Assembly (NCBI RefSeq): GCF_040796495.1 | Contig: NZ_JBFNQN010000011.1 | Location: 1 to 64,000, forward strand | Direction: 5' to 3' | Length of the DNA: 64,000 nucleotides | Source: Kineococcus endophyticus | GTDB taxonomy: Bacteria > Actinomycetota > Actinomycetes > Actinomycetales > Kineococcaceae | Shown: in pieces, positions 1,683-60,893 of the stretch | How the letters are laid out: each line of letters begins with the position of its first letter | Numbering within the stretch: position 1 is the stretch's first letter | Made by a program: the position numbers and the translations under genes | Notes under the pieces: model-generated | The model's input: only the letters and a program-made list of their open reading frames with translations | What the model was told of the DNA's origin: nothing | Databases searched by the model: none

Positions 1683-2504
1683 CGGCTGTGCTGACGGTGG
1701 GGTCGCCGGGACGCGCCGGTGGGCCCGCAGGAGGAACACGAACAGCACGACGAGCCCGACGACGGCCACGACGAGGTGGACGAGGTCGCTGCCCGAGGAG
1801 TCCCACGTCGCGTGCAGCACCACCGCCAGCAGGTACGTGCCGACGAACGCCCACACCGCCCGCCCCCGGCGCCGGGCGGAGGGGATGCGCCACAGCATCG
1901 CCACGGTCATGCCCGTCCACGCGATGTGGCAGGCAGGGGAGAGCAGCCCGCGCAGCAGCAGCTCCTCGTCGACCGCGGCGATGCTGCGCGCCCGCAGCAG
2001 TTCCTGGAAGCCGTAGCCCATCGTCTCCAGCACCGCGAAGCCCATGCCCGAGGCGACCCCCACGACGACGCCGCCGCGCGGGTCGCGCGGGCGCAGCACC
2101 AGGAACACCGCCAGGGGCACCACGAGCTTCGCGAACTCCTCGATGAGCCCCACGAAGAGCATCGGGACGGTGCCCAGGGTCCGCAGCGTGTCGAACTCCA
2201 GCGTCCCGGCCGTCACCGTGCCGACCACCCCGCCGGCGATCGCCACGGTGGCCACGAGCCAGCCGCGCACGGCCGGGCCGCGGCCGCCCGTCTCGGCGAA
2301 GGCCAGGACGCTCACGGGGACGGTGATGGCCCCCAGGAGCAGCAGCGAGGGGAAGAAGTTGAGGTTCTCCGTGTTCACCATCACCCGGAGCACGACGACG
2401 TAGGCGAGGACGCCGGCGACGAGCACCCCCAGCCACGCGAGGCGGGCCAGCCGGCCGGTGCGGGGGGACGCGGAGGGCGCTGTCGGGACGTGATCGTGGG
2501 TCAC
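1644..2504 (-). CDS. PrsW family glutamic-type intramembrane protease
   Basis: This polytopic membrane protein of about 286 residues carries the conserved PrsW motifs in order: EEFAK (the EExxK motif), GFAVLETMGYG, a CHIAWTGM segment and a terminal LHATWD. In Bacillus, PrsW performs site-1 cleavage of an anti-sigma factor; actinobacterial homologues are mostly uncharacterised. I chose GTG 2504 because it avoids overlapping the upstream kinase gene and has a CACGCT box 7 nt upstream. A GTG at 2549 would add 15 residues. The tail overlaps the convergent acyltransferase gene by 39 bases. Confidence 0.85.
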   Translation of the reverse strand: MTHDHVPTAPSASPRTGRLARLAWLGVLVAGVLAYVVVLRVMVNTENLNFFPSLLLLGAITVPVSVLAFAETGGRGPAVRGWLVATVAIAGGVVGTVTAGTLEFDTLRTLGTVPMLFVGLIEEFAKLVVPLAVFLVLRPRDPRGGVVVGVASGMGFAVLETMGYGFQELLRARSIAAVDEELLLRGLLSPACHIAWTGMTVAMLWRIPSARRRGRAVWAFVGTYLLAVVLHATWDSSGSDLVHLVVAVVGLVVLFVFLLRAHRRVPATPPSAQPSATPPSRQAWGR

Positions 2505-2523
2505 GCCCGACAGCGTGGCCGAG

Positions 2524-3462
2524 CTACCCCCGGGCCGCCAGTTCCGCACGGGTGGGCGGGTTCGCCCCGGCCCGTGAGCACGTGATGGACGCCGAGGCGA
2601 TGGCCGTGGTGACCAGGGACTCCAGCGTCCCGAGCCCCAGGTGCCGCAGCCTCGGCAGCGCGTCGCCCCCGAGGAGGTCGTGCTCGGCGAGGGCGTGCAG
2701 CAGCCCCGACATGAACGCGTCCCCCGCCCCCACGGTGTCGACGACGTCGACGCGCGGGGCCGGGACGTGCAGCGTGCCGGCGCCCGAGACCGCGACGGCG
2801 CCGGCGCTGCCGCGCGTCACCACGACGAGCGCGGGGCCGCACCCCTGCCAGCGGTGCGCGACGTCCTCGACGTCCTGACCCGGCAGCAGCCACTCGAGGT
2901 CCTCGTCGGAGGCCTTGACGACGTCGGCGGCCGCCACGAACTCCTCCACCCGCGCCAGCGCCTGGGCGGGGGAGTCGAAGAAGGCCGGTCGCACGTTCGG
3001 GTCGTAGCTGGTCGTGGCCCGCCCGCGCACCGAGCGCAGCAGGTCCAGGGCCGTCGTGGCCCCCGGGTCCACGGCCGCGCCGATGGACCCGGTGTGCAGC
3101 AGGGCGAGGTCGTCCGGCAGGGACGTCTCCGGCACCCGCCAGACCAGGTCGAAGTCGTAGGTGGCCTTGCCCTCGGCGTCGATCTCGGCCCGCGCGACGG
3201 CGGTCCGGTCGGCGTCCACGGCGCCCGGCAGCAACCGCACCCCGGCCCCGGCGAGGTGGCCGGTCAGCAGCTCGCCGTGGGCGTCGTCGCCGAGCCGGGT
3301 GAGGAGGGCGACGTCGTGCTCGAGCCGGCCCAGGCCGTAGGCGACGTTCAGCGGGGACCCGCCGGGGTGCTCGGCGCTGGTGTCCTCGCCCGCGCGGTGC
3401 ACGACGTCGACGAGGGCCTCCCCGACGACGACGGTCGGGCGGGAGGGTGCACGTCCCGCCAT
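2524..3462 (-). CDS. PfkB-family sugar kinase (fructokinase/ribokinase-like)
   Basis: The 312-residue protein has both PfkB signatures: a glycine-rich N-terminal GGSPLNVAYGLGRL region (about 34-47) and the C-terminal DTVGAGDAFMSG (about 242-253) with the anion hole GAGD and catalytic Asp near 248. These cytoplasmic enzymes phosphorylate sugars with ATP. Fructokinase is the most likely activity because the gene follows glpX, a gluconeogenic phosphatase, but the substrate is inferred. Its ATG overlaps the glpX stop codon (TGATG), so the two are probably translated from one mRNA. Confidence 0.85.
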   Translation of the reverse strand: MAGRAPSRPTVVVGEALVDVVHRAGEDTSAEHPGGSPLNVAYGLGRLEHDVALLTRLGDDAHGELLTGHLAGAGVRLLPGAVDADRTAVARAEIDAEGKATYDFDLVWRVPETSLPDDLALLHTGSIGAAVDPGATTALDLLRSVRGRATTSYDPNVRPAFFDSPAQALARVEEFVAAADVVKASDEDLEWLLPGQDVEDVAHRWQGCGPALVVVTRGSAGAVAVSGAGTLHVPAPRVDVVDTVGAGDAFMSGLLHALAEHDLLGGDALPRLRHLGLGTLESLVTTAIASASITCSRAGANPPTRAELAARG

Positions 3463-4508
3463 CAGCGCGGACCGGTGAAGTCGACGGCGGAGTAGGCCTG
3501 CAGCTTGGACAACCGGTGCTCGCTCTCGACCTTGCGGATGGTGCCGGACTTGCTGCGCATGACGATGCTCGACGTGGAGATCGTGTCGCCGCGGTAGCGC
3601 ACGCCGTCGACGAGCTCGCCGTCGGTGATGCCGGTGACGACGAAGTAGACGTTGTCGCTGGCCACGAGGGTGGACGTGTCGAGGACGGCGTCGAGGTCGT
3701 GCCCGGCGTCGATCGCCTTCTGCTTCTCCTCGTCGTCGCGCGGCCACAGCCGGCCCTGGATCGCGCCGCCGAGGCAGTGCATCGCGCAGGCCGTGATGAT
3801 CCCCTCCGGGGTGCCGCCGACGCCGAGGAGCAGGTCGACGCCGGTGCCCTCGCGGGCGGCCATGACGGCGCCGGCGACGTCGCCGTCGGAGATGAACTTG
3901 ATGCGGGCGCCGGCGTCGCGGACCTCCTCGGCCAGCTTCGCGTGCCGCGGGCGGTCCAGGATGCAGACCGTCACGTCCTCGACCCAGCGCTTCTTCGCGC
4001 GGGCCAGGCGGCGGATGTTCTCCCGCACCGGCAGGCGGATGTCGACGACGTCCGCGGCCTCGGGGCCGACGGCCAGCTTGTCCATGTAGAACACGGCGCT
4101 CGGGTCGTACATCGTGCCGCGCTCGGCGACGGCCAGGACGGCCACCGCGTTCGGCATGCCCCGCGCCGTGAGGGTCGTCCCGTCGATGGGGTCGACGGCC
4201 ACGTCGCACTCGGCGCCGCTGCCGTCCCCGACGCGTTCGCCGTTGTAGAGCATGGGCGCGTTGTCCTTCTCGCCCTCGCCGATGACGACGGTGCCGTTCA
4301 TCGAGACGGTGCCGATGAGGGTGCGCATGGCGTTGACGGCGGCGCCGTCGGCCTTGTTCTTGTCCCCGCGCCCGACCCACCGGCCGCCGGCCATGGCGGC
4401 TGCCTCGGTGACGCGGACGAGCTCCATCGCGAGGTTGCGGTCGGGGGCCTCGTCGGCGACGACGAGGGAGGGCGGGAGCGTGGTCTGGTGGGACGGGGTG
4501 TGAGCCAT
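3462..4508 (-). CDS. glpX: Class II fructose-1,6-bisphosphatase GlpX
   Basis: GlpX hydrolyses fructose-1,6-bisphosphate to fructose-6-phosphate in gluconeogenesis, in the cytoplasm. The 348-residue protein has the metal-binding DPIDGTT motif (106-112), the GRGDKN segment near 47 and the GVGGTPEG loop typical of the family. The length matches the family. The ATG at 4508 is preceded by a strong AGGAGGT Shine-Dalgarno. The gene is followed by a sugar kinase with an overlapping start, and it is divergent from the DUF4245 gene, the same arrangement I remember for Rv1099c/Rv1100 in M. tuberculosis. Confidence 0.97.
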
Positions 4509-4627
4509 GGGCGGGACCTCCTGGGCGACGTGGATCTGCTGGTCGGCGCTGCGGGATCCGGTGCCCCCGGGCGGGCGGCCGGCGACGCTCGTCGTCGGCT
4601 GCCGACTCTATCCGTCACCATGGGGGC

Positions 4628-5910: not shown

Positions 5911-6144
5911 CTACTCCTCGTCGGCGTCGCTCCCACGGGCCGCGTCGAGCCGCTCGCGGGCGCCGTCGAGCCACTGCTGGCAGCGGTCGGCCAGCGCCTC
6001 CCCGCGCTCCCACAGGGCCAGCGCCTCCTCCAGGCCGGTCCCGCCCGTCTCCAGGCGCCGCACGACGTCGACGAGCTCGTCGCGGGCCTGCTCGTAGCTC
6101 AGCTGGTCCGCGGGCGTGGTGGTCGCGGTCGTCTCCTCGGGCAC
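5911..6144 (-). CDS. xseB: Exodeoxyribonuclease VII small subunit
   Basis: XseB is the small helical subunit that assembles with XseA into exonuclease VII, which degrades single-stranded DNA in both directions. The 77-residue protein shows the family core [18 protein letters not shown] and [17 protein letters not shown], followed by a coiled C-terminus. It lies 34 bp downstream of xseA on the same strand. The GTG at 6144 has a TAACCT box 6 nt upstream, so it may also be made from its own leaderless transcript. Confidence 0.95.
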
Positions 6145-6150
6145 CCCGGG

Positions 6151-6156
6151 AGGTTA
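6151..6156 (-). promoter_or_regulatory. Putative -10 box of a leaderless xseB transcript
   Basis: TAACCT, read on the minus strand, ends exactly 6 nt before the GTG start of xseB. This matches the spacing seen before many other genes in the window. No -35 box is obvious. Confidence 0.45.
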
Positions 6157-6178
6157 CCCAGCGCCACCGGCGGACCCG

Positions 6179-7429
6179 TCACCCCGCGGTCGCCGCGACC
6201 TCCCCGTCGGCCAGCCGCAGGCGCAGCGCGGTGCCGGCGGGCGCGTCCTGCGGCTCCCGGACGAGGCTGCCGTCCTCCCGCTGCACCACTGCGTAGCCGC
6301 GCAGCAGCGTCGAGCGGGGGGACAGCGCCCGCACGCTCGTCCGCAGGTGCTCGACGTCGACGGCGGCCCGGTCCAGGCGCCCCGACACGGCCCGGCGCGC
6401 CCGCTCGCGCAGCCCGTCGACCTCGGCCGCCCGCCTGTCGAGCAGGACGTGCGGCGCGGCGAGGACCGGCCGGCTGCGCAGGGCGGCGAGCGCGTGCCCC
6501 TCGCGCTCGACGCGGCCCGTGACGGCCCGCCGCGCCCGCGACCGCAGCTGGCGGACCCCGGCCAGCTCCTCGACGACGTCCGGGACGACGAGGCGGGCGG
6601 CGTCCGTGGGCGTCGAGGCGCGCACGTCGGCGACGAGGTCGACCAGCGGGGAGTCGACCTCGTGCCCGATCGCCGAGACGACGGGGGTGCGGGCCGCGGC
6701 CACCGCCCGCACGAGGGCCTCGTTGCTGAACGGCAGCAGGTCCTCGACGCTGCCGCCGCCGCGGGCCAGCACGACGACGTCGACGGCGGGGTCGGCGTCG
6801 AGCTCGGCGAGCGCGGCCACCACCTCGGTGACGGCGTTGGGCCCTTGGACGGCCACCTCGCGGACCTCGAAGCGCACCGCGGGCCAGCGCAGCCGCGCGT
6901 TCTCCACCACGTCGCGCTCGGCGGCCGAGGCCCGGCCGCAGACCAGGCCGACGGTGCGCGGCAGGAAGGGCAGCGGCCGCTTGCGGGCGGTGTCGAAGAG
7001 GCCCTCGCTGCGCAGCACCCGCTTGAGGTGCTCCAAGCGCGCCAGCAGCTCCCCGACGCCGACGGGGCGCACGTCGTCGGCGGCCAGGGACAGCGACCCC
7101 CGCTTGGCGAAGAACTCCGGCCGGGCGTGGACGACGACGCGCGTGCCGTGGGCCAGGCCGTCGGGGAGCGCGTCGCGCAACCGTCCGAGCACGCGGCGGG
7201 CGATCGTCACCGGCAGGGACATGTCGGTGTCCGCGTCGCGCAGCGTCACGAAGACGACGGAGGAACCGGGGCGGTCGGAGACCTGCACGACCTGGCCCTC
7301 GACCCACGTCCAGGGCATCTTGGCGATGTAGGCGTCCATCTTGGCGGCGAGGAGCCGCACGGGCCACGGGTTCTCGGCGGTCGTCTCCCCGGCGGTGCTG
7401 GGACGGCGCGGCGGCGGGTCGGCGGGCAC
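6179..7429 (-). CDS. xseA: Exodeoxyribonuclease VII large subunit
   Basis: XseA is the catalytic subunit of exonuclease VII. The 416-residue protein has an N-terminal OB-fold (about 20-115), then the catalytic domain with [19 protein letters not shown] and the strongly conserved [20 protein letters not shown] followed by STPTDAA, and a long helical C-terminal part ending in LRGYAVV. The length is typical. The GTG start at 7429 is preceded by GAGGAT 6 nt upstream; the same bases could serve as a weak Shine-Dalgarno. The gene is divergent from ispH and the two share a 44-bp promoter space. Confidence 0.96.
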
Positions 7430-7461
7430 GGGCCCATCCTCCCCGGCCCTGCGCGCCGACC

Positions 7462-7467
7462 TACCAT
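7462..7467 (+). promoter_or_regulatory. Putative -10 box of a leaderless ispH transcript
   Basis: TACCAT ends 6 nt before the ispH GTG at 7474, so transcription should begin at or next to the start codon. There is no Shine-Dalgarno between them. Confidence 0.55.
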
Positions 7468-8598: not shown

Positions 8599-9745
8599 CC
8601 CGCAGCGGGACGACCTGCTCGTCCAGCAGCTCCGGGGCGGTCAACGGCCGGACGGCGTCCTCGAGGGGGACGAGTGCGGGCAGCGTCTCGTCGGCCAGGT
8701 CCAGCTCGCGGATGCGGCGGGCGGACACGAGGACGCGCCGCTCCAGCGTGCCCACGAAGCGGTTGTAGTCCTCCACGGCGCGGTGCAGCGTGCGCCCGAG
8801 GGAGGCGGTGTGACCCCCGAGCGTCCCGAGCCGCTCGTACAGCTCACGGCCCACCTCGAACAGCTCCCGCGCGTTCCCCGCGACCGCGTCCTGCTGCCAC
8901 GTCAGGGCCACCGTGCGCAGCAGCGCCAGCAGCGTCGTCGGAGTGGCCAGCACGACCCGCCGCGACATGGCGTGCTCGAGCAGCGTCGGGTCCGCCTCGC
9001 ACGCGGCGGCCAGGAACGCCTCGCCCGGCACGAAGCAGACGACGACGTCGGGGGAGTCCTCGACCGCGCTCGGGTACTCCTTCGCGGCGAGGGCGTCGAC
9101 GTGGCCGCGGACCGCGCGCGCGTGGGCCAGCAGCTCGCGGCGCCGCTCGCCGTCGTCGGCCGCCTCGCCCGCGCGCAGGAACGCGGCGAGCGGCGCCTTG
9201 GCGTCGACGACGACGTGCTTGCCGCCCGGGAGGTTGACGACGAGGTCGGGGCGGACGCTGCGCCCGGCGCGCGTCGTGAGCGTCGTCTGCTCGACGAAGT
9301 CGACGCGGTCGAGCATGCCGGCGTGCTCGACGACGCGGCGCAGCTGGACCTCGCCCCACGACCCGCGCGAGCTGGACGCGCGCAGGGCCCCGGCGAGGGA
9401 GGCCGTCTGGTCGCGCAGCGCGTCCGTGCCCTCGGCGACCGAGCGCAGCTGCTCGGTGAGCCGCGCGTACTGCTGCACGCGGTCCCGCTCCAGCGCCGCG
9501 ACCTGCGCCTCGACCCGTTCCAGCGTGGCCGCCACGGGGGTCACCGTCGCCGTCAGCTCGTGGCCGGCCGCGACGCGGTCCTCCAGCTCCTCGACGCGGT
9601 CGCGCAGCAGGTCCCGCTCGGCGCGCAGGGCGGCTTCGGCGGGGGCGGCCCGGCCGCGCAGCACCCAGCGCAGCAGCAGGGCCCCGGCGACGACGCCCAC
9701 GAGCAGGCCGAGGAGCAGACCGAGCAGGAGAGCGAGGACGTCCAT
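8585..9745 (-). CDS. rmuC: DNA recombination protein RmuC
   Basis: RmuC proteins limit DNA inversions at short repeats and are thought to be nucleases of the restriction-endonuclease fold. The 386-residue protein begins with one transmembrane helix (about 3-22), continues with a long coiled coil (about 25-130) and then the RmuC core with [36 protein letters not shown] and a conserved [13 protein letters not shown] segment. The D-x-x-V and VDAK residues fit the nuclease-like site. ATG 9745 places the membrane helix at the very N-terminus; CACAGT lies 7 nt upstream. Confidence 0.93.
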
Positions 9746-9836
9746 GCCGGGGACTGTGCCACCCGCCTCGGACACCGTCCGGGACCTCCCCTCGGACACC
9801 CGGGGCACGGGGCCGGGCGGGTAGGCTCCTGTTCCC

Positions 9837-10922
9837 GTGGCTCTCACCATCGGCATCGTCGGACTGCCCAACGTCGGCAAGTCCACGCTCTTCAACGCAC
9901 TGACCGAGAACGACGCGCTCGCGGCGAACTACCCGTTCGCGACGATCGAGCCGAACGTCGGGGTCGTCGCGCTGCCCGACCCGCGCCTGGACCGGCTCGC
10001 CCAGCTCTTCGACAGCGAGAAGACGGTGCCGGCCACCGTGTCCTTCGTCGACATCGCCGGCATCGTCAAGGGCGCGAGCGAGGGGGAGGGGCTGGGCAAC
10101 AAGTTCCTGGCCAACATCCGCGAGGCGGACGCGATCTGCCAGGTGACGCGCGCCTTCGCCGACCCGGACGTCGTGCACGTCGCGGGGGCCGTCGACCCGG
10201 CCGACGACATCGAGACCGTGCACACCGAGCTCGTGCTGGCCGACCTGCAGACCCTCGAGCGCGCGGTGCCGCGCCTGGAGAAGGAGGTCAAGGGCAAGAA
10301 GGCCGACCCGGCGGTGCTCAAGGCCGCCGTCGCCGCACAGGCCGTGCTCGACTCGGGCCGGCCGCTGTCGGCCGCCACGGCCGCCGACGACGTCGACGTG
10401 GCGCTGCTCAAGGAGCTGGGGCTGCTGACGACCAAGCCCTTCCTCTACGTCTTCAACGTCGACGAGACCGTCCTGGGCGACGAGGCCCGCAAGCAGGAGC
10501 TGCGCACGCTGGTGGCGCCGGCCGAGGCCGTCTTCCTCGACGCCAAGCTGGAGTCCGAGCTGGCCGAGCTGTCGGCCGAGGAGGCGGCCGAGCTGCTCGA
10601 GTCCGTCGGCCAGACCGAGTCCGGCCTCGACCAGCTCGCCCGCGTCGGCTTCGACACGCTGGGCCTGCAGACGTACCTGACGGCCGGTCCGAAGGAGTCG
10701 CGCGCCTGGACGATCCACCGCGGCTGGACGGCGCCGCAGGCGGCCGGGGTCATCCACACCGACTTCCAGCGCGGCTTCATCAAGGCCGAAGTCGTGTCCT
10801 TCGAGGACCTCCTCGCCGCCGGGTCGATGGCGGAGGCCAAGGCCGCGGGGCGGGTGCGGATCGAGGGCAAGGAGTACGTCATGGCCGACGGGGACGTCGT
10901 CGAGTTCCGCTTCAACGTCTGA
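9837..10922 (+). CDS. ychF: Obg-type ATPase YchF
   Basis: YchF (OLA1) is a P-loop NTPase that prefers ATP and associates with ribosomes and the proteasome or stress response. The 361-residue protein has the G1 motif GLPNVGKST (8-16), FVDIAGIVKGASEGEGLG as the G3 region, NVDE in place of NKxD (which explains the ATP preference) and a C-terminal TGS-like domain with REVVSFEDL-type sequence near the end. The length is exactly that of the family. GTG 9837 has TAGGCT 9 nt upstream. Confidence 0.96.
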   Translation: MALTIGIVGLPNVGKSTLFNALTENDALAANYPFATIEPNVGVVALPDPRLDRLAQLFDSEKTVPATVSFVDIAGIVKGASEGEGLGNKFLANIREADAICQVTRAFADPDVVHVAGAVDPADDIETVHTELVLADLQTLERAVPRLEKEVKGKKADPAVLKAAVAAQAVLDSGRPLSAATAADDVDVALLKELGLLTTKPFLYVFNVDETVLGDEARKQELRTLVAPAEAVFLDAKLESELAELSAEEAAELLESVGQTESGLDQLARVGFDTLGLQTYLTAGPKESRAWTIHRGWTAPQAAGVIHTDFQRGFIKAEVVSFEDLLAAGSMAEAKAAGRVRIEGKEYVMADGDVVEFRFNV

Positions 10923-10943
10923 AACGGCCCGGAAGGGTCCGTT
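10923..10943 (+). terminator. Hairpin terminator after ychF
   Basis: Directly after the stop codon, AACGGCCC pairs with GGGTCCGTT (one bulged T) across a GGAA tetraloop. This is an 8-bp GC-rich stem with a short CC-rich tail and no T-tract, as is usual in high-GC actinomycetes. Confidence 0.55.
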
Positions 10944-11443
10944 CCTGCCCGTCCGGAAACGCCGTGGAAACACGGCGGACCCGAGCTGGAAACGATTGTG
11001 TCTCGATCCGTGCCGCGTGCCCCGAAACGGCTGGGAAGGGCGGGCGGAGTGCGTCATGCTCACGGGGCGGTGAGGTCGACGGGGATCTCACCGCTCCCAC
11101 GTCCGGGGCCGGCGCCCCGCGGGTCGAGCCTCCCCGGTGGCCAGACCGACACCACATCGTTACCTCAGGGCCCGATCAGCGCGATCACGCCCTTGACCTG
11201 CGACGACGTGTCATCCTTGATGCACGCTGGGTCACGCGAGGGGTGTCGGACGCCGCGATGGAGGAGGACACTGGGGGCGGTCTGCGCCCTTGACGTCCGC
11301 CAACCGTTCACGGTCGTCCGGAAATGCGTTGACCGGGTGTTAACGTGCTGCCCGACCTGTAGAGGTGGACATCCTGCTCGTCGGGAGTCGCCGTAGATGG
11401 GCAACCTGCCCACCCAGTTCCGCTTGCGAGGAGGAGTTCCACC
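10923..11443. other. 521-bp intergenic region between ychF and the peptide-binding protein gene
   Basis: No credible gene is present. The left part holds the ychF terminator and a second hairpin with a GAAA tetraloop (GCCGTG at 10961-10966 with CACGGC at 10971-10976, flanked by GTCC and GGAC). GGAAAC occurs three times, at 10955, 10966 and 10988, spaced by 11 and 22 bp. Near the right end are TTGACC (11329-11334), GTTAAC and TGTAGA, which could form a promoter although no pair has ideal spacing. A GAGGAGGAG Shine-Dalgarno lies just before the TTG start at 11444. Confidence 0.5.
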
Positions 11444-23042: not shown

Positions 23043-23048
23043 CAGGAT
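23043..23048 (+). promoter_or_regulatory. Possible -10 box of a leaderless mshB transcript
   Basis: CAGGAT ends 6 nt before the ATG at 23055, the same spacing as other leaderless candidates here. The first base is C instead of the usual T. Confidence 0.35.
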
Positions 23049-30677: not shown

Positions 30678-30683
30678 TACGGT
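30678..30683 (+). promoter_or_regulatory. Putative -10 box of a leaderless gltA transcript
   Basis: TACGGT ends 6 nt before the ATG at 30690, and no Shine-Dalgarno lies between. Confidence 0.5.
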
Positions 30684-31986: not shown

Positions 31987-32943
31987 TCACGCGCCCAGGC
32001 GCACCTGGACGCCGCCCCGGGGGACCCCAGTGGCGGCGCTCGTCCAGCCGCGCCCGGACTCCTCGCGCGACCAGCGCGAACCCTCGACGCTGACCTCCGT
32101 CACGTCGTAGACCGAGGCGCTGGCCACGGACCAGCTCGCGACGGCCCAGGCCGTGCGCTGGGCGTCGTCCCCGCCCAGGGTGAACTCCACCGCCCGTCCT
32201 CGCGTCCCCGCGACCACCTCCGGTGCCGACGTCGTCACCTGGGTGCCGGCCGCGTCGGCGAAGCGCTGCGCCGCCGGGGCGAGTTCCACGTCGTCCCCGG
32301 ACTCCTGCGACACCGGTGCCGGGCGCAGGTGGCAGGTGAAGCCGCCCGGGGTGTACCCCGTCAGGGCCGAGGCCACGAGCCGCGCCTCCGGTTCGTGGTC
32401 GCCGTAGGCGAGTGGGAAACCGCTGCGCTGCACGCGTTGTGCCGCATCGGTGACCGGCAGGTCGCGGTACCCCTCGACCTTGACCAGGGCGTCGTAGAAG
32501 GCGTTCGTCGCGTACACCGGGTCCTGCACCTGTTCCGGCGTTCCCCAGCCCTGGGAGGGCCGCTGCTGGAACAGGCCCAGGGAGTCGCGGTCGCCGTGGT
32601 CGAGGTTGCGCATCCCCGACTCCTGGACGATCGTCGCGATCCCGATCGTCGCCGCCCGCGCGGGCAGCCCCCGGCGGACGGCGATCCCGACGACCGTCGC
32701 GGCGTTCGCGGCCTGCTCGGGCGACATCGACGTGGACTCGCCGTCGACGCTGGCGCGGCAGCGCTCCACGACGACCGGCGCCTCGGGGTCGCGCGTCAGC
32801 CACACGACGCCACCGGCCACGACGACACCCGTCGCGACGAGCGCCGTCACCAGCCGGAGGCGACGGGTGTGCCGGGCGCCCGGGGACGGTCGACGCGAAC
32901 GGGGACGGGAGCGGGGACGCGGGCGGGCTGGGGTGCCGGCCAC
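31987..32943 (-). CDS. Membrane-anchored or secreted protein with a lysozyme-like domain
   Basis: The 318-residue protein has a very basic N-terminus (Arg/Pro/Ser-rich, 1-28), a single membrane helix at about 29-50 and an extracytoplasmic region containing IGIATIVQESGMRNLDHGDR and DSLGLFQQRPSQGWGT. This Glu-Ser plus SLGLFQQRPSQGWG pattern resembles lysozyme/transglycosylase-fold proteins of actinomycetes, with the Glu in QES as the likely catalytic residue. Some homologues are mis-named heavy metal transporters. The C-terminal ~130 residues are not recognised. It lies directly downstream of dapD (1-bp gap), so it is probably co-transcribed, consistent with a cell-wall role. Confidence 0.65.
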   Translation of the reverse strand: MAGTPARPRPRSRPRSRRPSPGARHTRRLRLVTALVATGVVVAGGVVWLTRDPEAPVVVERCRASVDGESTSMSPEQAANAATVVGIAVRRGLPARAATIGIATIVQESGMRNLDHGDRDSLGLFQQRPSQGWGTPEQVQDPVYATNAFYDALVKVEGYRDLPVTDAAQRVQRSGFPLAYGDHEPEARLVASALTGYTPGGFTCHLRPAPVSQESGDDVELAPAAQRFADAAGTQVTTSAPEVVAGTRGRAVEFTLGGDDAQRTAWAVASWSVASASVYDVTEVSVEGSRWSREESGRGWTSAATGVPRGGVQVRLGA

Positions 32944-32944: not shown

Positions 32945-33934
32945 TCAGTTGGCGTGCAGCGCGGGGTTCAGCTCGACCCGGACGCCCTTGCGCGGCAGCG
33001 CCTCGACCTGACCCGTCTGGGAGTTGCGGCGGAACAGCAGCCCGTCCGAGCCCGACAGCGTGCGGGCCGACACGGTCTGCTGCACGGTGCCGTCCTCGCC
33101 CAGCAGGCTGACCTTCGTCCCGGCCGTGATGTACGTGCCGGCCTCCACGACGCAGTCGTCGCCCAGGCTGATGCCGGTGCCCGAGTTCGCGCCCAGCAGC
33201 GTCCGCTCGCCGATGCTGACGACCTGCTTGCCGCCGCCCGACAGCGTCCCCATGATCGAGGCGCCGCCGCCGACGTCGGACCCGTCGCCGACGACGACGC
33301 CCGCGGAGATGCGGCCCTCGACCATCGACGTGCCGGTGGTGCCGGCGTTGAAGTTCACGAACCCCTCGTGCATGACCGTCGTGCCGGCCGCCAGGTGCGC
33401 ACCGAGGCGGACGCGGTCGGCGTCGGCGATGCGCACGCCCGTGGGCGTCACGTAGTCGGTCATGCGCGGGAACTTGTCGATGCCGAAGACGGTGACCGGC
33501 CCGACGTTCGCCCGCAGGGCCAGGCGGACCCGCTCGAAGTCGGCGACTGCGCACGGCCCGTGGTTCGTCCACACGACGTTGGCCAGGACGCCGAAGATCC
33601 CGTCGAGGTTCGCGCCGTGCGGGGCGACGAGCCGGTGCGAGAGCAGGTGCAGCCGCAGGTAGGCGTCGGCGGTGTCGGCCGGCGCGGCGTCGAGGTCGAT
33701 GTCGACCGTCAGGACGCGCTGCCTGGTGCGGCGGTGGATGTCGTCGGTCTCCAGCGAGGCCAGCTCGGCCGGGACGCCGTAGGAGCTCGTCGTCGGCGCG
33801 GGGGCGAGCGCGGGGAAGGGGAACCAGACGTCGAGCACGGTGCCGTCCTCGGCGTACGTCGCGAGGCCGTGGCCCCACGCCCGACGGCTCTGCTCGGGGC
33901 TGGGCTGGGGGGACGGGGTGTTCGGCTCGCTCAC
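32945..33934 (-). CDS. dapD: Tetrahydrodipicolinate N-succinyltransferase DapD
   Basis: DapD transfers succinyl from succinyl-CoA to tetrahydrodipicolinate in lysine/DAP synthesis. The 329-residue protein is the actinobacterial type: an N-terminal alpha/beta domain, then a left-handed beta helix of hexapeptide repeats ([40 protein letters not shown]), ending in a short C-terminal domain with [11 protein letters not shown]. The GTG at 33934 has TAGGGT 7 nt upstream. It is divergent from dapE with 43 bp between the start codons. Confidence 0.95.
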
Positions 33935-33941
33935 GCGCTCG

Positions 33942-33947
33942 ACCCTA
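33942..33947 (-). promoter_or_regulatory. Putative -10 box of a leaderless dapD transcript
   Basis: TAGGGT on the minus strand lies 7 nt before the dapD GTG. It is mirrored by an identical box for dapE 17 bp away, so the two promoters are arranged symmetrically. Confidence 0.55.
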
Positions 33948-33964
33948 CAAGCGGGGCCCCTGGC

Positions 33965-33970
33965 TAGGGT
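33965..33970 (+). promoter_or_regulatory. Putative -10 box of a leaderless dapE transcript
   Basis: TAGGGT ends 7 nt before the dapE GTG at 33978. The pair of boxes forms an inverted repeat around GCGGGGCCCC in the 43-bp divergent space. Confidence 0.55.
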
Positions 33971-33977
33971 GAGGTGC

Positions 33978-35126
33978 GTGAGCGTCCCCACCTCCACGCC
34001 CGTCACCCCGGCCGGTCCGCCGACCGACCTGAGCGACCCCGCCCTCGACGTCGTCGAGCTGGTCCGGCGGATCTGCGACATCCCCTCGGTCAGTGGTGAC
34101 GAGCGCGCGCTGGCGGACGCCGTCGAGGCTGCGCTCAGCGCCCTTCCGGGGTTGGAGGTCGCGCGCGACGGCGACGCCGTCGTGGCCCGCACGACGCTGG
34201 GTCGTTCCGAGCGCGTCCTGCTCGCCGGCCACCTCGACACCGTGCCGCTGACGGATCCGCCGAACCTGCCGGTGCGGCGCGAGCAGCACCCCGTCGACGG
34301 CGACGTCCTGGTCGGCCGCGGCACGTGCGACATGAAGGGCGGTGTCGGCGTCCAGCTCGCGCTCGCCCGCCGCGTGGCCGCGGCGGGGGAGGACCTCACC
34401 CGCGACGTGACGTTCGTCTTCTACGACCACGAGGAGGTCGAGGCCGCCCGCAACGGCCTGGGCCGGCTCGCCCGGAACCACCCCGAGCTGCTCGCCGCGG
34501 ACTTCGCGGTGCTGCTCGAACCGTCCTCGGCCGTCGTCGAGGGCGGCTGCAACGGAACCCTGCGCGCCGAGGTGACGACGACGGGCAAGGCCGCGCACTC
34601 TGCCCGGCCCTGGCGCGGGCACAACGCCATCCACGACGCCGCGCCCGTCCTGGCCCGCCTGGCGGCCTACGCGCCGCGGGAGGTCGACGTCGAGGGCCTG
34701 GTGTTCCGCGAGGCGCTCAACGCCGTCCTGGTCAGCGGCGGCATCGCGGGCAACGTCATCCCCGACCGCTGCACGGTCACGGTGAACTACCGGTTCGCGC
34801 CGTCGCTGGACGCCGCCGGCGCGCAGGCGCACGTGCGCGAGGTGTTCGACGGGTTCGCCGTGGAGGTCACCGACGTCGCCGAGGGCGCCCGGCCGGGGCT
34901 GCACCTGCCGGCCGCCGCCGACTTCGTGGCCCGCACGGGCACGACCCCGCTGCCCAAGTACGGCTGGACCGACGTGGCGCGCTTCTCGGCCCTCGGCGTG
35001 CCCGCCGTGAACTACGGGCCCGGCGACAACGCGACGGCCCACGCCGACGACGAGCGGTGCCGCACGGCCGAGGTCGAGCAGTGCCTGGAGGTCCTCTCGG
35101 GCTGGCTGCTGGACGGCGCCCGGTGA
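33978..35126 (+). CDS. dapE: Succinyl-diaminopimelate desuccinylase DapE
   Basis: DapE removes succinate from N-succinyl-LL-DAP, giving DAP for lysine and peptidoglycan. The 382-residue M20 metallopeptidase has the zinc motifs [16 protein letters not shown] and [10 protein letters not shown], plus the dimerisation (lid) domain with [35 protein letters not shown] carries the last His ligand. Start GTG 33978 was chosen for the upstream box; an in-frame GTG at 33969 also exists. The stop overlaps the next start as GTGA. Confidence 0.95.
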
Positions 35127-40448: not shown

Positions 40449-40454
40449 ACTGTA
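40449..40454 (-). promoter_or_regulatory. Putative -10 box of a leaderless methyltransferase transcript
   Basis: TACAGT on the minus strand lies 6 nt before the GTG at 40442. Confidence 0.5.
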
Positions 40455-41416: not shown

Positions 41417-42024
41417 GCGGACCGCACCTCGGCGCGCGGGTGACCGCACTCGTCGACGGGCGGCTCGCCACGGACGCCGAAGCCCGCGCCCACGACCACG
41501 TCCGGGCGTGCCCGGACTGCTCCGACGCCCTCGAGGCCGAACGGCTGGTCCGGGCGCGCCTGCACGCCCTGGGCGAGCCGGAGCTGTCGGAGGACCTCGT
41601 GGTCAGGCTGCTGCAGATCGGTGGCCCCTCCGGTCCGCTCCCGCCGCGCGACGCCCCGATGGCGAACCCGGCGCGGCCCGTCGTCGGGGTGGCGCCGCCC
41701 TCGCGCACCGACCCCGTGCGGTCGCGGTCCTCGCGCGGCCCGGCCGGCCGCGCCGTCCGCCGTGTGCGGCGCCGTCCCGTGGCGGCCGCGCTCGCCGGGA
41801 CCTTCTCCCTCCTCGGGGCGGGCATCGCCGGGGTCCTCGTCCTCGGCGGGCTGCCCGGTGGCGGGCAGGCCCCGGTGGCCGAGCTCCGGACGACCCCCTC
41901 GTCCGCGCCGTCGTCGGCGGGCTTCACGCCCGGGTCGGACGCGCCCGGGACGGCCACGGTCAGCCGCGTGCAGCCCTCCGGGCCGGCGACGCCGACCGCG
42001 AGCCCCACGACGACCGCTCCGTGA
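41413..42024 (+). CDS. rseA: Zinc-binding anti-sigma factor, RseA-like
   Basis: The 203-residue protein has an N-terminal cytoplasmic ZAS domain with the [10 protein letters not shown] motif (HxxxCxxC), a positively charged linker, one transmembrane helix at about 124-145 ([20 protein letters not shown]) and a Ser/Pro/Thr-rich outer tail. It should bind and silence SigE until the motif is oxidised or the protein is cleaved. It overlaps sigE and the HtrA gene by GTGA at both ends. The tail ends close to the membrane, leaving a short exposed segment for proteolysis. Confidence 0.9.
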
Positions 42025-43415
42025 GCGACCCGTACGGCACGGGCGCGCCCGACCCCCGCCGCGACGAGGGCGGTCGCCCCGACCCGTGGGCGGCGCCCGG
42101 TCACGACGGCCGGTCCGCCGATGGACCCTGGCGCCCGGCCGACGCGTGGGGCCAGGCGCCCGCCGGTCCGCAGCAGCCCGCCGGCCACGACGCCTTCCCG
42201 CCCCCCTACGACCCCTACCGGGCCGGTCCGGCCGTGCCCCAGGCCGCCCGGCCCGAACCCTTCGGTCTGCTCCCCGCGCAGGGATCCGAGCCGTGGCCAC
42301 CGCCCGCCCCCCGCTCGCGGCGTTCGCCGGCGCGCTGGATCGGCGCCGGATCCCTCGTGCTCGTGCTGGGGGTCGTCGGCGGCTTCGCCGGTGGCCTGCT
42401 GCAGGACGAGCTGTCCGACGGCTCCGGCGGGACCTACCCGGGGGTGTCGCTGCCCTCGCCGTCGGCCGGGTCGACGCAGCGGGCCGCCGGGTCCGTGGCG
42501 GGCATCGCGGCCGCCGCGCTGCCGAGCGTCGTCGCGCTCCAGGTGCAGGGCTCGCAGGGCTCGGGCACCGGGTCGGGCTTCGTGCTGGACGCGCCCACCG
42601 ACGGCGGCAGCTTCGTCCTCACCAACAACCACGTCGTGGCCGGGGCGGCCACCGACGGCATCGTCGTCGTCTTCCAGGACGGCCAGCAGGCCCGGGGCCG
42701 CGTCGTCGGCGCGGACTCCTCCTACGACCTCGCGGTCGTGCGCGTGGACCGCACGGGCCCGCGCGCCCTGCCGTTCGGCGACTCCTCCAGCGTGGTCGTG
42801 GGTGACCCGGTCGTCGCCGTCGGGGCACCGCTCGGCCTGCAGGGCACCGTGACCGAGGGGATCGTCTCGGCGCTCAACCGCCCGGTGACGGCGGGGGAGT
42901 CCCAGGACGAGACCTCCTACATCCAGGCCATCCAGACCGACGCCGCGATCAACCCGGGGAACTCCGGCGGGCCGCTGCTCAACGCGGCCGGCGAGGTGAT
43001 CGGCGTCAACTCGGCCATCGCGGCGCTCCCCGGCGCCGGGGGGCAGGCGCCGACGGGCAGCATCGGGCTGGGGTTCTCCATCCCCTCCGAGCAGGCCCGG
43101 CGCACCGCCGAGCAGCTCATCCAGACCGGCCGCGCCGTCCACCCCGTCATCAAGGTCTCCCTCGACGGGACCTACCAGGGGCAGGGCGTGCGCATCGTCG
43201 ACCAGCCCGGCGCCGTCACGCCCGGCGGTCCGGGGGACCGCGCGGGGCTGCAGCCCGGGGACGTCGTGCTGGCCATCGACGGCCGTCCCGTGACCGAACC
43301 GTCCGAGCTGATCGTCGACATCCGCGCCCGCGAGCCCGGCGAGACGGTGACGCTGTCCGTCCGCAGAGGTGGAGAGACGGTGGACGTGCCGGTCACCCTG
43401 GAAGCCGACGGTTAG
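42021..43415 (+). CDS. htrA: Membrane-anchored HtrA-type trypsin-like serine protease with PDZ domain
   Basis: The 464-residue protein has a Pro/Gly-rich cytoplasmic N-terminus (1-105), one transmembrane helix (106-127) and an outer protease domain with the triad His204 (NNHVV), Asp236 (YDLAVV) and Ser315 (GNSGGP). A C-terminal PDZ domain contains GDRAGLQPGDVVLAIDGRPV. It is the likely periplasmic quality-control protease of the SigE regulon and could process the anti-sigma factor. The start overlaps rseA by GTGA. tatB follows after 9 bp. Confidence 0.95.
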   Translation: MSDPYGTGAPDPRRDEGGRPDPWAAPGHDGRSADGPWRPADAWGQAPAGPQQPAGHDAFPPPYDPYRAGPAVPQAARPEPFGLLPAQGSEPWPPPAPRSRRSPARWIGAGSLVLVLGVVGGFAGGLLQDELSDGSGGTYPGVSLPSPSAGSTQRAAGSVAGIAAAALPSVVALQVQGSQGSGTGSGFVLDAPTDGGSFVLTNNHVVAGAATDGIVVVFQDGQQARGRVVGADSSYDLAVVRVDRTGPRALPFGDSSSVVVGDPVVAVGAPLGLQGTVTEGIVSALNRPVTAGESQDETSYIQAIQTDAAINPGNSGGPLLNAAGEVIGVNSAIAALPGAGGQAPTGSIGLGFSIPSEQARRTAEQLIQTGRAVHPVIKVSLDGTYQGQGVRIVDQPGAVTPGGPGDRAGLQPGDVVLAIDGRPVTEPSELIVDIRAREPGETVTLSVRRGGETVDVPVTLEADG

Positions 43416-43418
43416 GAT
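43413..43418 (+). promoter_or_regulatory. Putative -10 box of a leaderless tatB transcript
   Basis: TAGGAT overlaps the htrA stop codon (TAG) and ends 6 nt before the tatB GTG, so tatB may be transcribed both from here and by read-through. Confidence 0.45.
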
Positions 43419-45011: not shown

Positions 45012-45017
45012 AGCCTA
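45012..45017 (-). promoter_or_regulatory. Putative -10 box of a leaderless mrp transcript
   Basis: TAGGCT on the minus strand lies 6 nt before the mrp ATG at 45005. Confidence 0.55.
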
Positions 45018-51312: not shown

Positions 51313-51318
51313 AATCTA
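51313..51318 (-). promoter_or_regulatory. Putative -10 box of a leaderless transcript for the MgtE-N/CBS gene
   Basis: TAGATT on the minus strand lies 7 nt before the GTG at 51305. Confidence 0.5.
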
Positions 51319-51357: not shown

Positions 51358-51363
51358 TACCGT
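51358..51363 (+). promoter_or_regulatory. Putative -10 box of a leaderless dps transcript
   Basis: TACCGT ends 6 nt before the dps ATG at 51370 in the divergent space shared with the MgtE-N gene. Confidence 0.5.
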
Positions 51364-54568: not shown

Positions 54569-54688
54569 CCGTTCATCATCGCCCCGGGCGGGTCGCGCTG
54601 TCGCTCCGCCCCGGCCCGTCGCCGGACGACCCGCGACGCAGCGTGACCAGAGGTTGACGACGGACCGTCACCGGGGCCACCGTGGAGC

Positions 54689-55413: not shown

Positions 55414-55419
55414 TAGGCT
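55414..55419 (+). promoter_or_regulatory. Putative -10 box of a leaderless PHP-gene transcript
   Basis: TAGGCT ends 6 nt before the GTG at 55426. Confidence 0.55.
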
Positions 55420-59191: not shown

Positions 59192-59995
59192 GTGCCCGCC
59201 GCCGTCCCGGACCCCGCCCGCCGCGCCCTGCTCCTGGGCGGAGCCGGGGTGCTCCTCGCCGGCTGCACGGGGCAGACCCCGTCCGCCGGACCGGTCTCCT
59301 CGACCTCCTCGTCGTCCGCGCCCGGGACGAGTGCGGCACCGGCCTCCTCCGCCGCCGCGGCGGAAACCTCCCCGTCCCCTTCCTCTCCCTCGTCGTCCAC
59401 GACCGCACTGCCGCCCGGCCTCACGGCCGACGACGTCCGCGCCGGCGTGCTCGGCGCCGACGTCCCGCAGTCCGGCGGTGGGGTCCTCACCGTCGTCCCC
59501 GGCTCCTCGTCCGCGCCGCCCTCGGCCCGCGTCCGCACCGTGCGCGTCGAGGTCGAGCAGGACCTCGTCGCCGCCGGTCTCCTCGACCCCGTCGCCTTCG
59601 CCGACTTCGCCCTCGGCGTCCTCAACGACCCGCGCAGCTGGGGCGCCGGCGGCGCGATGAGCTTCGCGCGCACCGACGGCGACGCGCAGATGCGCCTCGT
59701 GCTGGCCACGCCCGACACCTCCGCCGCCCTGTGCCGGCCGCTGCGGACGATGGGCACGCTCTCGTGCCGGTCCGGGGACGCCGCCGTCCTCACCTGGTAC
59801 CGGTGGGTGCGGGCCATCCCCGACTACGGCCAGGACCGGACGGGCTACCGCCAGTACGTCGTCAACCACGAGATCGGCCACGTCCTCGGACACGGGCACG
59901 ACCCCAACCCCGGGCCCGGGCGACTGGCGCCGGTGATGATGCAGCAGACCAAGGGGCTGCGGGGCGCGCTGCCCAACCCGTGGCCCCACCCCTGA
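59192..59995 (+). CDS. DUF3152 lipoprotein with a zinc metalloprotease-like motif
   Basis: The 267-residue protein has a signal peptide with lipobox LAGC (Cys near 25), a Ser/Pro/Ala-rich linker (about 30-75) and a DUF3152 domain that includes VVNHEIGHVLGHGH, the HExxHxxxxxH zinc-binding signature of metzincin-like peptidases. It is therefore probably an extracytoplasmic peptidase; the family is uncharacterised. The start GTG 59192 has CATGCT 6 nt upstream. Confidence 0.85.
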   Translation: MPAAVPDPARRALLLGGAGVLLAGCTGQTPSAGPVSSTSSSSAPGTSAAPASSAAAAETSPSPSSPSSSTTALPPGLTADDVRAGVLGADVPQSGGGVLTVVPGSSSAPPSARVRTVRVEVEQDLVAAGLLDPVAFADFALGVLNDPRSWGAGGAMSFARTDGDAQMRLVLATPDTSAALCRPLRTMGTLSCRSGDAAVLTWYRWVRAIPDYGQDRTGYRQYVVNHEIGHVLGHGHDPNPGPGRLAPVMMQQTKGLRGALPNPWPHP

Positions 59996-59998
59996 CCC

Positions 59999-60481
59999 TC
60001 ACCGCACCACCGTGCGCGGGCCGGCTCCGTCCCGCCACGACGTGATGCGCAGGCGCTCGCCGTCGAGCTCGGTGAGGACGACCGCCGTGGGGTGCAGGCG
60101 CAGGAGGACGTACGGCTCCGGCGGGTGCCGGTCGGCCGTGTAGGCGGCCAGGACGTCCGGGTCCGTGACCACCACCGCGCGACCGGAGACCTTCGCGTCC
60201 CCGTCCGCCATCGACCCGTCCCCGGTGTGGGCGTGCAGGGCGAAGCGCGGGTCGCGGCGCAGGTCGTCGAGCTTGCGCGCCGGGACCATCGAGCCGAGCA
60301 GCAGGTCGCCGTGCCAGCTGTCGACCTCGGTGCCCCACACCCGGGGGGACCCGTCCCGCGAGAGCGTCGCCAGCACGTGGTGGCGGGCTGCGCCGAAGCG
60401 GGCCAGGACGGCACGCGCCAGCTCGGGGGCGCCGGCCTCGACGTCGGACCACCGCGGGCCGGGGGAGGGATCGTTCGTCAT
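59999..60481 (-). CDS. Pyridoxamine-5'-phosphate oxidase-fold (PPOX/FMN-binding) protein
   Basis: The 160-residue protein has the split-barrel flavin-binding pattern: HHVLATLSRDGSPRVWGTEV, WHGDLLLGSMVPARKLDDLR, DPRFALHAHTG and AVVVTDPDVLAAY. Such proteins bind FMN or F420 and act as oxidoreductases; those of actinomycetes are often F420-dependent. The cofactor is not proven. The start ATG 60481 has CAGGGT 6 nt upstream. It is convergent with the DUF3152 gene (gap of 3 bp). Confidence 0.85.
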   Translation of the reverse strand: MTNDPSPGPRWSDVEAGAPELARAVLARFGAARHHVLATLSRDGSPRVWGTEVDSWHGDLLLGSMVPARKLDDLRRDPRFALHAHTGDGSMADGDAKVSGRAVVVTDPDVLAAYTADRHPPEPYVLLRLHPTAVVLTELDGERLRITSWRDGAGPRTVVR

Positions 60482-60536
60482 GGCGGCACCCTGCACCGCG
60501 GGTCCGACACGAGCACCCCTCTGACAGGCTGCGGCT

Positions 60537-60893
60537 GTGGAGAGCGCGCTGCCCGCCCGGGCCGAGGAGGTCCTCGAGGTGGTCCACGCCATCCCGTCCG
60601 GGCGGGTGCTGACGTACGGCGACGTCGCCGCGCGCGTCGGCGACCGGGGTCCCCGCTTCGTCGGCAACGTGCTGCGCCGCTTCGGGTCCGGTGCGCCCTG
60701 GTGGCGCGTCCTGCGGGCCGACGGCAGCGCGCCGCCGCCCCTGGCCCCCGAGGCGCTGCACCGCTGGCGGGCCGAGGGGACGCCGTTGCGCCGGCTCGCC
60801 CACGACCCCGTGGACGTGCGGGTGGACCTCGACCGCGCCCGCTGGGACGCGGGTACGTGGACGGCGCCGTGGGAGGAGGTGCCCGCCCCGTGA
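60537..60893 (+). CDS. Alkyltransferase-like protein (ATL), MGMT family without the active-site cysteine
   Basis: The 118-residue protein has the MGMT DNA-binding fold with PSGRVLTYGDVAARVG and FVGNVLRRFG, but the methyl-accepting Cys of PCHR is replaced: GSGAPWWRVLRADG, with Trp55-Trp56. This defines the alkyltransferase-like proteins, which bind O6-alkylguanine and pass it to nucleotide excision repair. It is single-domain and cytoplasmic. GTG 60537 has CAGGCT 6 nt upstream. The stop overlaps metF (GTGA). Confidence 0.9.
   Translation: MESALPARAEEVLEVVHAIPSGRVLTYGDVAARVGDRGPRFVGNVLRRFGSGAPWWRVLRADGSAPPPLAPEALHRWRAEGTPLRRLAHDPVDVRVDLDRARWDAGTWTAPWEEVPAP

Follow-up and report, generated by a model that had tools for sequence, protein, structure and literature searches.

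Across a 64,000-nt window from Kineococcus endophyticus (the whole stretch of DNA that was analyzed), and across 1.26 Mb of the same genome, a TAnnnT box ends at a fixed short distance before the start codon of many genes that stand first in their transcription units. This pattern is best read as leaderless transcription from promoters dominated by the -10 element, a prediction from sequence that we consider very probably correct. In the mechanism that we infer, which covers the sigma factor, the position of the transcript ends and how the message is translated, the boxes would be the -10 elements of housekeeping-type promoters, with recognition resting mainly on the box and no visible -35 consensus. 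Transcription would begin at the first base of the start codon, whether ATG or GTG, and the ribosome would recognize the 5'-terminal start codon of a message that has no 5' leader, rather than a Shine-Dalgarno sequence.

Start-adjacent boxes in the window

The boxes found in the window are given below, with the distance from the end of the box to the start codon.

2512..2517, minus strand: weak box CACGCT, 7 nt from candidate prsW start GTG 2504 (caller preferred start 2426)
4616..4621, plus strand: CACCAT, 6 nt from GTG 4628 of the DUF4245 gene
6151..6156, minus strand: TAACCT, 6 nt from GTG 6144 of xseB
7436..7441, minus strand: GAGGAT, 6 nt from GTG 7429 of xseA, divergent from ispH
7462..7467, plus strand: TACCAT, 6 nt from GTG 7474 of ispH
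9753..9758, minus strand: CACAGT, 7 nt from ATG 9745 of rmuC
9822..9827, plus strand: TAGGCT, 9 nt from GTG 9837 of ychF
23043..23048, plus strand: CAGGAT, 6 nt from ATG 23055 of the PIG-L/mshB-like gene
30678..30683, plus strand: TACGGT, 6 nt from ATG 30690 of gltA
33942..33947, minus strand: TAGGGT, 7 nt from GTG 33934 of dapD
33965..33970, plus strand: TAGGGT, 7 nt from GTG 33978 of the dapE-like gene
40449..40454, minus strand: TACAGT, 6 nt from GTG 40442 of the O-methyltransferase gene (caller preferred 40361)
43413..43418, plus strand: TAGGAT, 6 nt from GTG 43425 of tatB
45012..45017, minus strand: TAGGCT, 6 nt from ATG 45005 of mrp
51313..51318, minus strand: TAGATT, 7 nt from GTG 51305 of the MgtE_N gene
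51358..51363, plus strand: TACCGT, 6 nt from ATG 51370 of the dps-like gene, divergent from the MgtE_N gene
54575..54580, minus strand: GATGAT, 6 nt from GTG 54568 of the aminopeptidase P gene (pepP)
55414..55419, plus strand: TAGGCT, 6 nt from GTG 55426 of the PHP-domain gene
60488..60493, minus strand: CAGGGT, 6 nt from ATG 60481 of the PNPOx-like (PPOX) gene
60525..60530, plus strand: CAGGCT, 6 nt from GTG 60537 of the alkyltransferase-like gene

The first-pass annotation had listed 11 strong boxes, and all 11 are confirmed, each ending 6 or 7 nt short of an in-frame start. Its nine weaker boxes fared less evenly: eight are seen as nAnnnT 6–7 nt from an in-frame start, the prsW box among them when start 2504 is used and absent with the caller-chosen start 2426, and the box assigned to a DUF3152 gene was not found. 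That gene was not located in the window, where the candidate ORF 31987-32943 has neither a Pfam match nor a box. Such nAnnnT boxes are cheap, because 36 of 603 first genes carry one at any of three neighboring control distances. The ychF box was absent from the earlier list. Matches above Pfam cut-offs support the identity of the strong-box genes xseB, ispH (LYTB), gltA, dapD, dapE-like M20, mrp, MgtE_N, ferritin/Dps-like, PHP and O-methyltransferase, and of the weak-box genes PrsW, DUF4245, xseA, rmuC, PIG-L, aminopeptidase P, PNPOx and alkyltransferase-like. The tatB product scores barely below both cut-offs (Pfam 20.8 bits against 21, NCBIfam 94.3 against 96).

The box is locked in position to the start codon

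Starts were placed by coding score alone, without upstream signals, and first genes were counted. Among 399 first genes (864 kb), TAnnnT ends 6, 7 and 8 nt before the start in 29, 20 and 6 cases, and the 49 boxes at 6 and 7 nt compare with a mean of 1.04 (maximum 4) in 50 dinucleotide shuffles. The larger set of 603 first starts (1.26 Mb) gives 45, 27 and 11, a total of 83, with 0–3 at every other distance within 0–29 nt. The spacing that the first-pass annotation had set against random ATG/GTG codons is nearly absent there: at 6–7 nt, a box precedes 1 of 8784 internal codons in frame and none of 2922 out of frame. Leaderless transcription fits these results because the box is position-locked at first starts and nearly missing before internal start-like codons. 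Before other intergenic ATG/GTG codons a minor peak remains (29 of 3705 at 6–7 nt, 1 to 8 per distance elsewhere), which we read as probable true starts missed by the caller.

The peak recurs at 6, 7 and 8 nt in the genomes G008 (10/5/1 of 144) and G015 (7/7/2 of 137). In 80 actinobacterial loci, boxes number 37, 20 and 30 at these distances and 17 at 9 nt (of 623), the 8–9 nt share being mostly ychF. All 80 loci carry ychF, the query ORF 8783-11293 being a shadow frame over that gene, and they form a broad but not random actinobacterial sample.

Boxed starts lack a Shine-Dalgarno word, as had been claimed: none of the 83 has one, compared with 129 of the 520 unboxed first starts and 287 of 8007 internal codons. 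This absence is partly geometric, because the box and a Shine-Dalgarno sequence compete for the same bases. It bears on the possibility that transcription, despite ordinary -10 elements in these boxes, usually starts elsewhere: a second promoter upstream would give a message with a leader, and the box next to the start codon would provide a minor or stress start. Such dual starts have a precedent in the 47 Mycobacterium tuberculosis genes reported with both kinds (PMC3898074), and boxes of the tatB type sit within likely operons. A leadered message would, however, lack the usual ribosome site at these genes because no boxed start has a Shine-Dalgarno word, and we regard this arrangement as unlikely, at perhaps one chance in several.

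Share of first starts and composition of the motif

A mixture model places 42% of first starts in the boxed class (33% at posterior >0.95; 1.26 Mb), with 302 of 693 above 0.5 and 228 of 693 above 0.95. The corresponding counts for the window are 18 and 13 of 36 scored first genes, and the earlier estimate of about a third of transcription units is a fair one. Two scrambled EM seeds converge on the same motif: T 0.52, A 0.87, N, N, N, T 0.97. The third base is C at 0.36, i.e. TAC boxes are common. Three window starts that are weak members of the class (2426, 32850 and 61960) have no nAnnnT box.

Decoy spacings separate less cleanly than the shuffles do: refits with the box forced to 15–21 or 22–28 nt still claim 22% and 25% of first starts, although with a weaker and different motif and with log-likelihoods of 878 and 885, some 300 units short of 1177. 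The mixture share is therefore permissive, and its 42% should be read as an upper estimate; counting plain TAnnnT boxes at starts placed without signals gives the 83 of 603 above. The refits, and the fact that 155 of 662 caller starts moved once signals were allowed, could also be taken to mean that a caller or reader favoring starts after AT-rich hexamers creates the signal. The peak is nevertheless present with coding-score-only starts, ortholog alignment backs the starts of gltA, dps and ychF, and the fixed model run on shuffled upstream sequence yields a class share of 0.4% (2 and 3 operon-internal genes of G015 exceed 0.5 on shuffled sequence). We consider such an artefact extremely improbable; when tested it is not supported for the peak itself, but may inflate the share.

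Leaderless-class first starts comprise 219 GTG and 80 ATG codons, and TTG is less frequent than among the others (3 of 302 vs 14 of 391, p 0.04). A search for a -35 consensus in 205 box-aligned promoters gave no more than 0.05 bit per position at 20–30 nt before the box end; a rise in ortholog identity at 25–26 nt may be a weak -35.

Conservation among relatives

The nAnnnT box is kept in 50 of 52 ortholog comparisons with its distance shifted by no more than one base, and in 43 without any shift, compared with 36 of 603 first genes for the three control distances. At gltA, GGGTACGGT occurs in 9 of 9 family genomes compared, our own included, and G012 and G015 have a Shine-Dalgarno-like stretch in place of the box. 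Conservation extends beyond the box, the six preceding bases being 0.63–0.83 identical. This feature, together with a fixed distance from the start codon of the kind typical of translation signals, might suggest that the boxes serve translation or bind a regulator rather than acting as promoters. Against this, the box matches the -10 consensus that RNA-seq has mapped in other actinobacteria, it precedes operon-internal genes less often (11 of 280) than first starts (83 of 603), and it is common to genes of unrelated function, leaving a non-promoter role with very little probability. The leaderless reading proposed in the first-pass annotation is thus supported by the spacing lock, the missing Shine-Dalgarno words, the 6–8 nt tolerance, the scarcity of TTG and conservation in the genus. 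For annotation, this means that the box can set start codons in such genomes, and that short or low-scoring genes such as xseB and tatB gain support from it.

A stop codon as the first half of the box

At tatB, box bases 43413-43415 are also the TAG stop of the trypsin/PDZ (HtrA-type) gene 42021-43415, an overlap absent from the first-pass annotation. Across four sets, the upstream stop forms the first half of a box for 26 of 144 TAG/TAA stops compared with 7 of 1123 TGA stops. Context matters as well: TAG-nnT is found at 1 of 82 stops without a following same-strand gene and at 26 of 54 with one (own genome, G008 and G015). The counts are not independent, three Streptomyces and Kitasatospora hits sharing identical letters and the G008 tatB hit being the ortholog of that in the window, and p-values therefore overstate the effect. 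Among the nine own-genome hits, two depend on an in-frame start lying further upstream than the one called (called gaps 84 and 87) and two are low-scoring genes (scores 18 and 21). Weak boxes of the form TGAnnnT, in which TGA would supply the A, were tested as well and gave no clear peak, with 4 of 579 own-genome TGA stops at register. The converse idea, that the boxes are merely stop codons, was rejected since TAC boxes are common.

The overlap might be a coincidence of compact spacing with no real dual use. In GC-rich DNA, an in-frame TAGnnT terminates any upstream ORF that reaches it, and selection is unnecessary for the overlap because the box ends whatever ORF runs into it. The bias between stop types makes chance unlikely, and the near absence of TAG-nnT where no same-strand gene follows also argues against it; we judge coincidence improbable. 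This default-stop route and selection for the overlap fit these data alike. Dual use would provide a concrete reason for TAG persisting at some gene ends in a genome with TGA at 93% of its stops, and implies that altering the shared stop codon also alters the promoter of the next gene. Among the matches listed from the open-licence PMC literature, none describes a stop codon within a leaderless -10 box, which argues only weakly that no such description exists.

An offset box at ychF

An adjacent box precedes ychF in 62 of the 78 actinobacterial loci examined, and in 61 of these 62 it lies at 8–9 nt rather than the usual 6–7 nt, usually with two pyrimidines directly before the GTG. The window ychF is 93.6% identical to that of Kineococcus vitellinus. 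YchF is reported to inhibit translation of leaderless mRNA in E. coli (PMC8138138); the same gene in the window is itself box-adjacent. We tentatively suggest, as a rather unlikely scheme, that a stretched promoter places the 5' end of the ychF message on the GTG, or that the message carries a 1–3-base leader, and that the fixed offset may render ychF responsive to the protein it encodes. Such feedback would set the capacity for leaderless translation in a phylum that relies on it, and the ychF offset makes it directly testable. The available text of PMC8138138 gives no match for 'autoregulat', 'actinobacteria' or 'mycobacter', and the matches listed from the open-licence PMC literature include no offset box at ychF, which is weak evidence of absence.

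Divergent gene pairs

Where divergent genes lie <75 nt apart, both sides are leaderless in 26 of 40 pairs. The dapD/dapE-like spacer is 43 nt, and because it is so short each box falls near the -35 position of the other promoter. A special spacing of ∼43 nt, suspected from this pair, found no support on inspection, since the 26 both-leaderless spacers span 22 to 70 nt, four of them being 41 nt long.

Comparison with known systems

That leaderless mRNAs are established in Actinobacteria, as the first-pass annotation stated, is confirmed by three reports (PMC3160421, PMC3898074, PMC3890552). Zheng et al. (2011, PMC3160421) predicted that 86 of 89 actinobacteria have leaderless genes, which account for around 20% of the total, and the TA-led genes that they describe resemble ours in having TAnnnT about 10 bp before the start in high-GC genomes and a large gene share. 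The present analysis differs in treating one genome with a free-start mixture and an ortholog check, and in expressing the share (about 42%) over first starts. In M. tuberculosis, 26% of genes with a primary TSS are leaderless (Cortes et al. 2013, PMC3898074), likewise with TAnnnT, no -35 motif and transcription starting on the start codon, and juxtaposed divergent promoters are called common there; the evidence is experimental in that system and predictive in ours, where the main leaderless start is GTG. In Corynebacterium glutamicum, 33% of mapped mRNAs are leaderless with AUG and GUG starts only (PMC3890552), a similar proportion of about a third and the same two start codons, whereas AUG accounts for about 79% there. 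The density called notable in the first-pass annotation is only partly so: the 42% is a share of first starts from a permissive model, and beside these figures it is high without being exceptional.

Outside the phylum, a -10 motif adjoining ORFs is reported as experimentally tested in Deinococcus (PMC12340547), the same TANNNT beside the ORF in Deinococcus-Thermus; 'stop codon' has no match in the available text of that report. PMC2784483 describes how stop codon usage is adapted where a Shine-Dalgarno sequence overlaps the stop, whereas the overlap here is with a -10 box. In their TAnnnT spacing of 6–8 nt, their ATG and GTG starts with few TTG, and their lack of a strong -35 and of a Shine-Dalgarno sequence, the boxed genes of K. 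endophyticus resemble the leaderless genes known from Actinobacteria.

Spacing of the boxes

The source assembly comprises 5.04 Mb in 46 contigs, and the window has a G+C content of 70-79% (4 kb steps). Genes were called from coding statistics and start-codon type only, leaving upstream signals unused, and their labels were checked by profile searches, with tatB slightly under the cut-off in both libraries. The first-pass annotation had described widespread -10 hexamers ending 6 or 7 nt before start codons. All 11 of its strong boxes (TAnnnT) were found at these distances, as were 8 of the 9 weaker ones as nAnnnT, the exception being a DUF3152 gene that was not located in the window; the weak box of prsW fits only a start other than the gene caller's choice. 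The observation is confirmed, and its interpretation as leaderless transcription, a kind already known, is supported.

The 399 first genes of an 864 kb set have 29, 20 and 6 TAnnnT boxes ending 6, 7 and 8 nt before the start, and no other distance out to 35 nt has more than 3. Dinucleotide shuffles of this set gave 1.04 for 6 and 7 nt together (maximum of 4 in 50 rounds). The same spacing is almost absent before internal ATG or GTG codons, being found at 6-7 nt in 1 of 8784 in-frame and 0 of 2922 out-of-frame cases. The remaining intergenic ATG/GTG codons have a small peak (29/3705 at 6-7 nt), perhaps made up of overlooked true starts. A larger set of 1.264 Mb contains 45, 27 and 11 boxes at 6, 7 and 8 nt in 603 first genes, and 8, 3 and 0 in 280 operon-internal genes; the pattern recurs in a same-genus genome (G008) and a same-order relative (G015). 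The reported lack of a Shine-Dalgarno sequence at boxed starts also holds, with such words at 0/83 boxed versus 129/520 unboxed first starts, although this absence is partly geometric because the two signals would occupy the same positions. Internal codons have a Shine-Dalgarno word upstream in 287 of 8007 cases.

Share of predicted leaderless starts

In a mixture model in which start positions were free to move, the box class took 42% of first starts and the Shine-Dalgarno class 56%; a refitted share of this kind is permissive, because decoy refits, with the box forced to 15-21 or 22-28 nt, claimed 22% and 25%. The decoy motifs were weak and different, and the log-likelihood was ~300 lower. 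The main model, begun from two scrambled seeds, arrived at its own motif again. With the model fixed, dinucleotide-shuffled upstream sequence gave 0.4%, and 0/995 genes exceeded a posterior of 0.5 (two rounds); the identical control in G015 gave 1%, and 2 and 3 operon-internal genes exceeded 0.5 there. The density originally put at about a third is supported as a third or more of first starts: 228/693 first starts fall in the box class at >0.95, as do, of the 36 first genes scored within the window, 18 at >0.5 and 13 at >0.95. These do not include xseB, tatB, the alkyltransferase-like gene or, when read from its boxed start, the O-methyltransferase.

Conservation among relatives

Syntenic stretches from seven same-genus, one same-family and three same-order genomes were aligned at orthologous starts. 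Box conservation was counted for the 18 window genes with nAnnnT in six same-genus genomes and the same-family genome, excluding the very close G006; a comparison was accepted when the protein alignment extended to residue 1, this residue lay at a start codon and identity was ≥55% (n = 52). An nAnnnT box is kept within one base of its distance in 50/52 comparisons and at the identical distance in 43/52, the chance level at three control distances being 36/603. Registering the rows on the box gives identities of 0.94, 0.96 and 0.98 at its T, A and final T; the middle bases have 0.81-0.83, the six bases preceding the box 0.63-0.83 and positions farther upstream 0.29-0.75. A peak in identity 25-26 nt upstream of the box end may represent a weak -35. 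Registration on the start codon gives 0.83, 0.86 and 0.83 for T, A and T (42 comparisons, TAnnnT genes). The signal is switched at gltA, where GGGTACGGT is present in 9/9 family genomes compared and a Shine-Dalgarno-like stretch in the genomes G012 and G015.

Upstream of the DUF4245 gene (4598-4621), tatccgtcaccatgggg is near-identical in several same-genus genomes, a conservation exceeding what the box alone accounts for.

Divergent pairs

33934-33978, divergent: spacer of dapD and the dapE-like gene, 43 nt, containing both boxes

Among 193 divergent pairs, both starts are predicted to be leaderless in 26/40 separated by <75 nt versus 15/117 at ≥110 nt; counted by starts, the values are 60/80 versus 87/234. 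The dapD/dapE boxes are retained in G008, where the spacer is >60 nt and diverged. Both-leaderless spacers of 22-41 nt are present elsewhere in the genome. The spacer between the genes at 29010 (-) and 29109 (+) carries cgtcggcgatacta; this stretch, whose core is TAGTAT/ATACTA, is conserved in several same-genus genomes and may be a promoter or regulator site that both genes share.

A TAG stop inside the box

43413-43415 (+): TAG stop of the HtrA-type gene (42021-43415), supplying the first three bases of tatB's box TAGGAT (43413-43418)

Six same-genus genomes (G001, G005, G006, G007, G008 and G010) preserve the sequence surrounding this stop and box; that TAG is the actual end of the upstream gene was computed for G008 only. 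A test anchored at stops, using signal-free gene calls, sought stop-nnT followed 6-8 nt on by the in-frame ATG/GTG of the next gene. Fusion was found for 9/34 TAG/TAA versus 5/579 TGA stops in the window's own genome, 3/7 versus 1/108 in G008, 5/22 versus 0/117 in G015 and 9/81 versus 1/319 in 80 named actinobacterial loci, comparisons whose p-values are inflated by relatedness among sites. The TAG/TAA matches in all four sets are TAG, and TAnnnT boxes near TAG stops that are followed by an in-frame start occupy a single register, on the A of TAG, in 9/9, 3/3, 5/5 and 9/11. Of the own-genome leaderless genes with a same-strand upstream gene, 7/158 are TAG-fused, or 7/22 where the gap is ≤12 nt. 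Across the three genomes, TAG-nnT occurs at 26/54 stops when a same-strand gene comes next and 1/82 otherwise, versus 98/804 and 80/703 for TGA-nnT; in the named loci the TAG-nnT contrast is weaker (16/59 versus 15/207).

Two further fused pairs vary among same-genus copies. The MFS transporter has a TAGnnT box in 7/9 readable copies (G001, G003, G005, G006, G007, G008, G010) and TACGGT in G002 and G009, the G004 copy being truncated; the upstream coding end and TAG are visibly retained only in G005 and G006. The AAA ATPase has the box in 4/6 (G001, G005, G006, G008; absent from G002 and G009). At xseB (6144-6181), the window has TAACCT, with xseA terminating upstream of the box, whereas in G008 the upstream gene terminates at the box itself (TAGCCT), so fusion varies within the genus.

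The simplest origin would be that a TAG box offers a ready-made stop to any upstream frame entering it. Stray TAG-nnT elsewhere would be purged, since it might act as a promoter, in agreement with the depletion of TANNNT reported for M. tuberculosis coding sequence (PMC10653884). This fusion is one of two parts worth following.

The offset box of ychF

9822-9837: ychF box, 9 nt before the start

The other is the ychF offset. The window gene is 93.6% identical to ychF on a Kineococcus vitellinus contig. In 78 of the 80 named loci, a broad, non-random sample, the alignment was usable from the first three residues; 62/78 have a TAnnnT box, 38 at 8 nt, 23 at 9 nt and 1 at 7 nt, and 36/42 genus labels have it at 8 or 9 nt. 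Boxes are absent among these 78 from Streptomyces, Kitasatospora, Streptacidiphilus and Catenulispora loci and from one locus each of Blastococcus, Geodermatophilus, Mycolicibacterium and a metagenome bin. The 8-9 nt distance is found in 61/62 boxed ychF genes versus 14/141 of the remaining leaderless genes in these loci, and both bases preceding the start are pyrimidines in 58/62 versus 58/141. A leaderless ychF would be unusual, or is argued against, because in M. tuberculosis 0 ribosomal protein, initiation or elongation factor genes were leaderless (PMC3898074). In E. coli, YchF is an inhibitor of the translation of leaderless messages (PMC8138138). The offset box may reflect feedback of YchF on its own message.

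A long open shadow frame (8783-11293) lies over ychF and matches other genomes only because the gene beneath is conserved, a caution for ORF lists in high-GC DNA.

Comparison with mycobacterial promoters

When 205 high-confidence boxes were self-aligned, T, A and the final T had frequencies of 0.64, 0.97 and 1.00, and they yielded no -35 consensus. The same holds at mapped starts of M. tuberculosis (PMC3898074), a species for which closely spaced divergent promoters are already recorded in that paper, and the -10 of M. smegmatis is likewise the same (PMC6448022).
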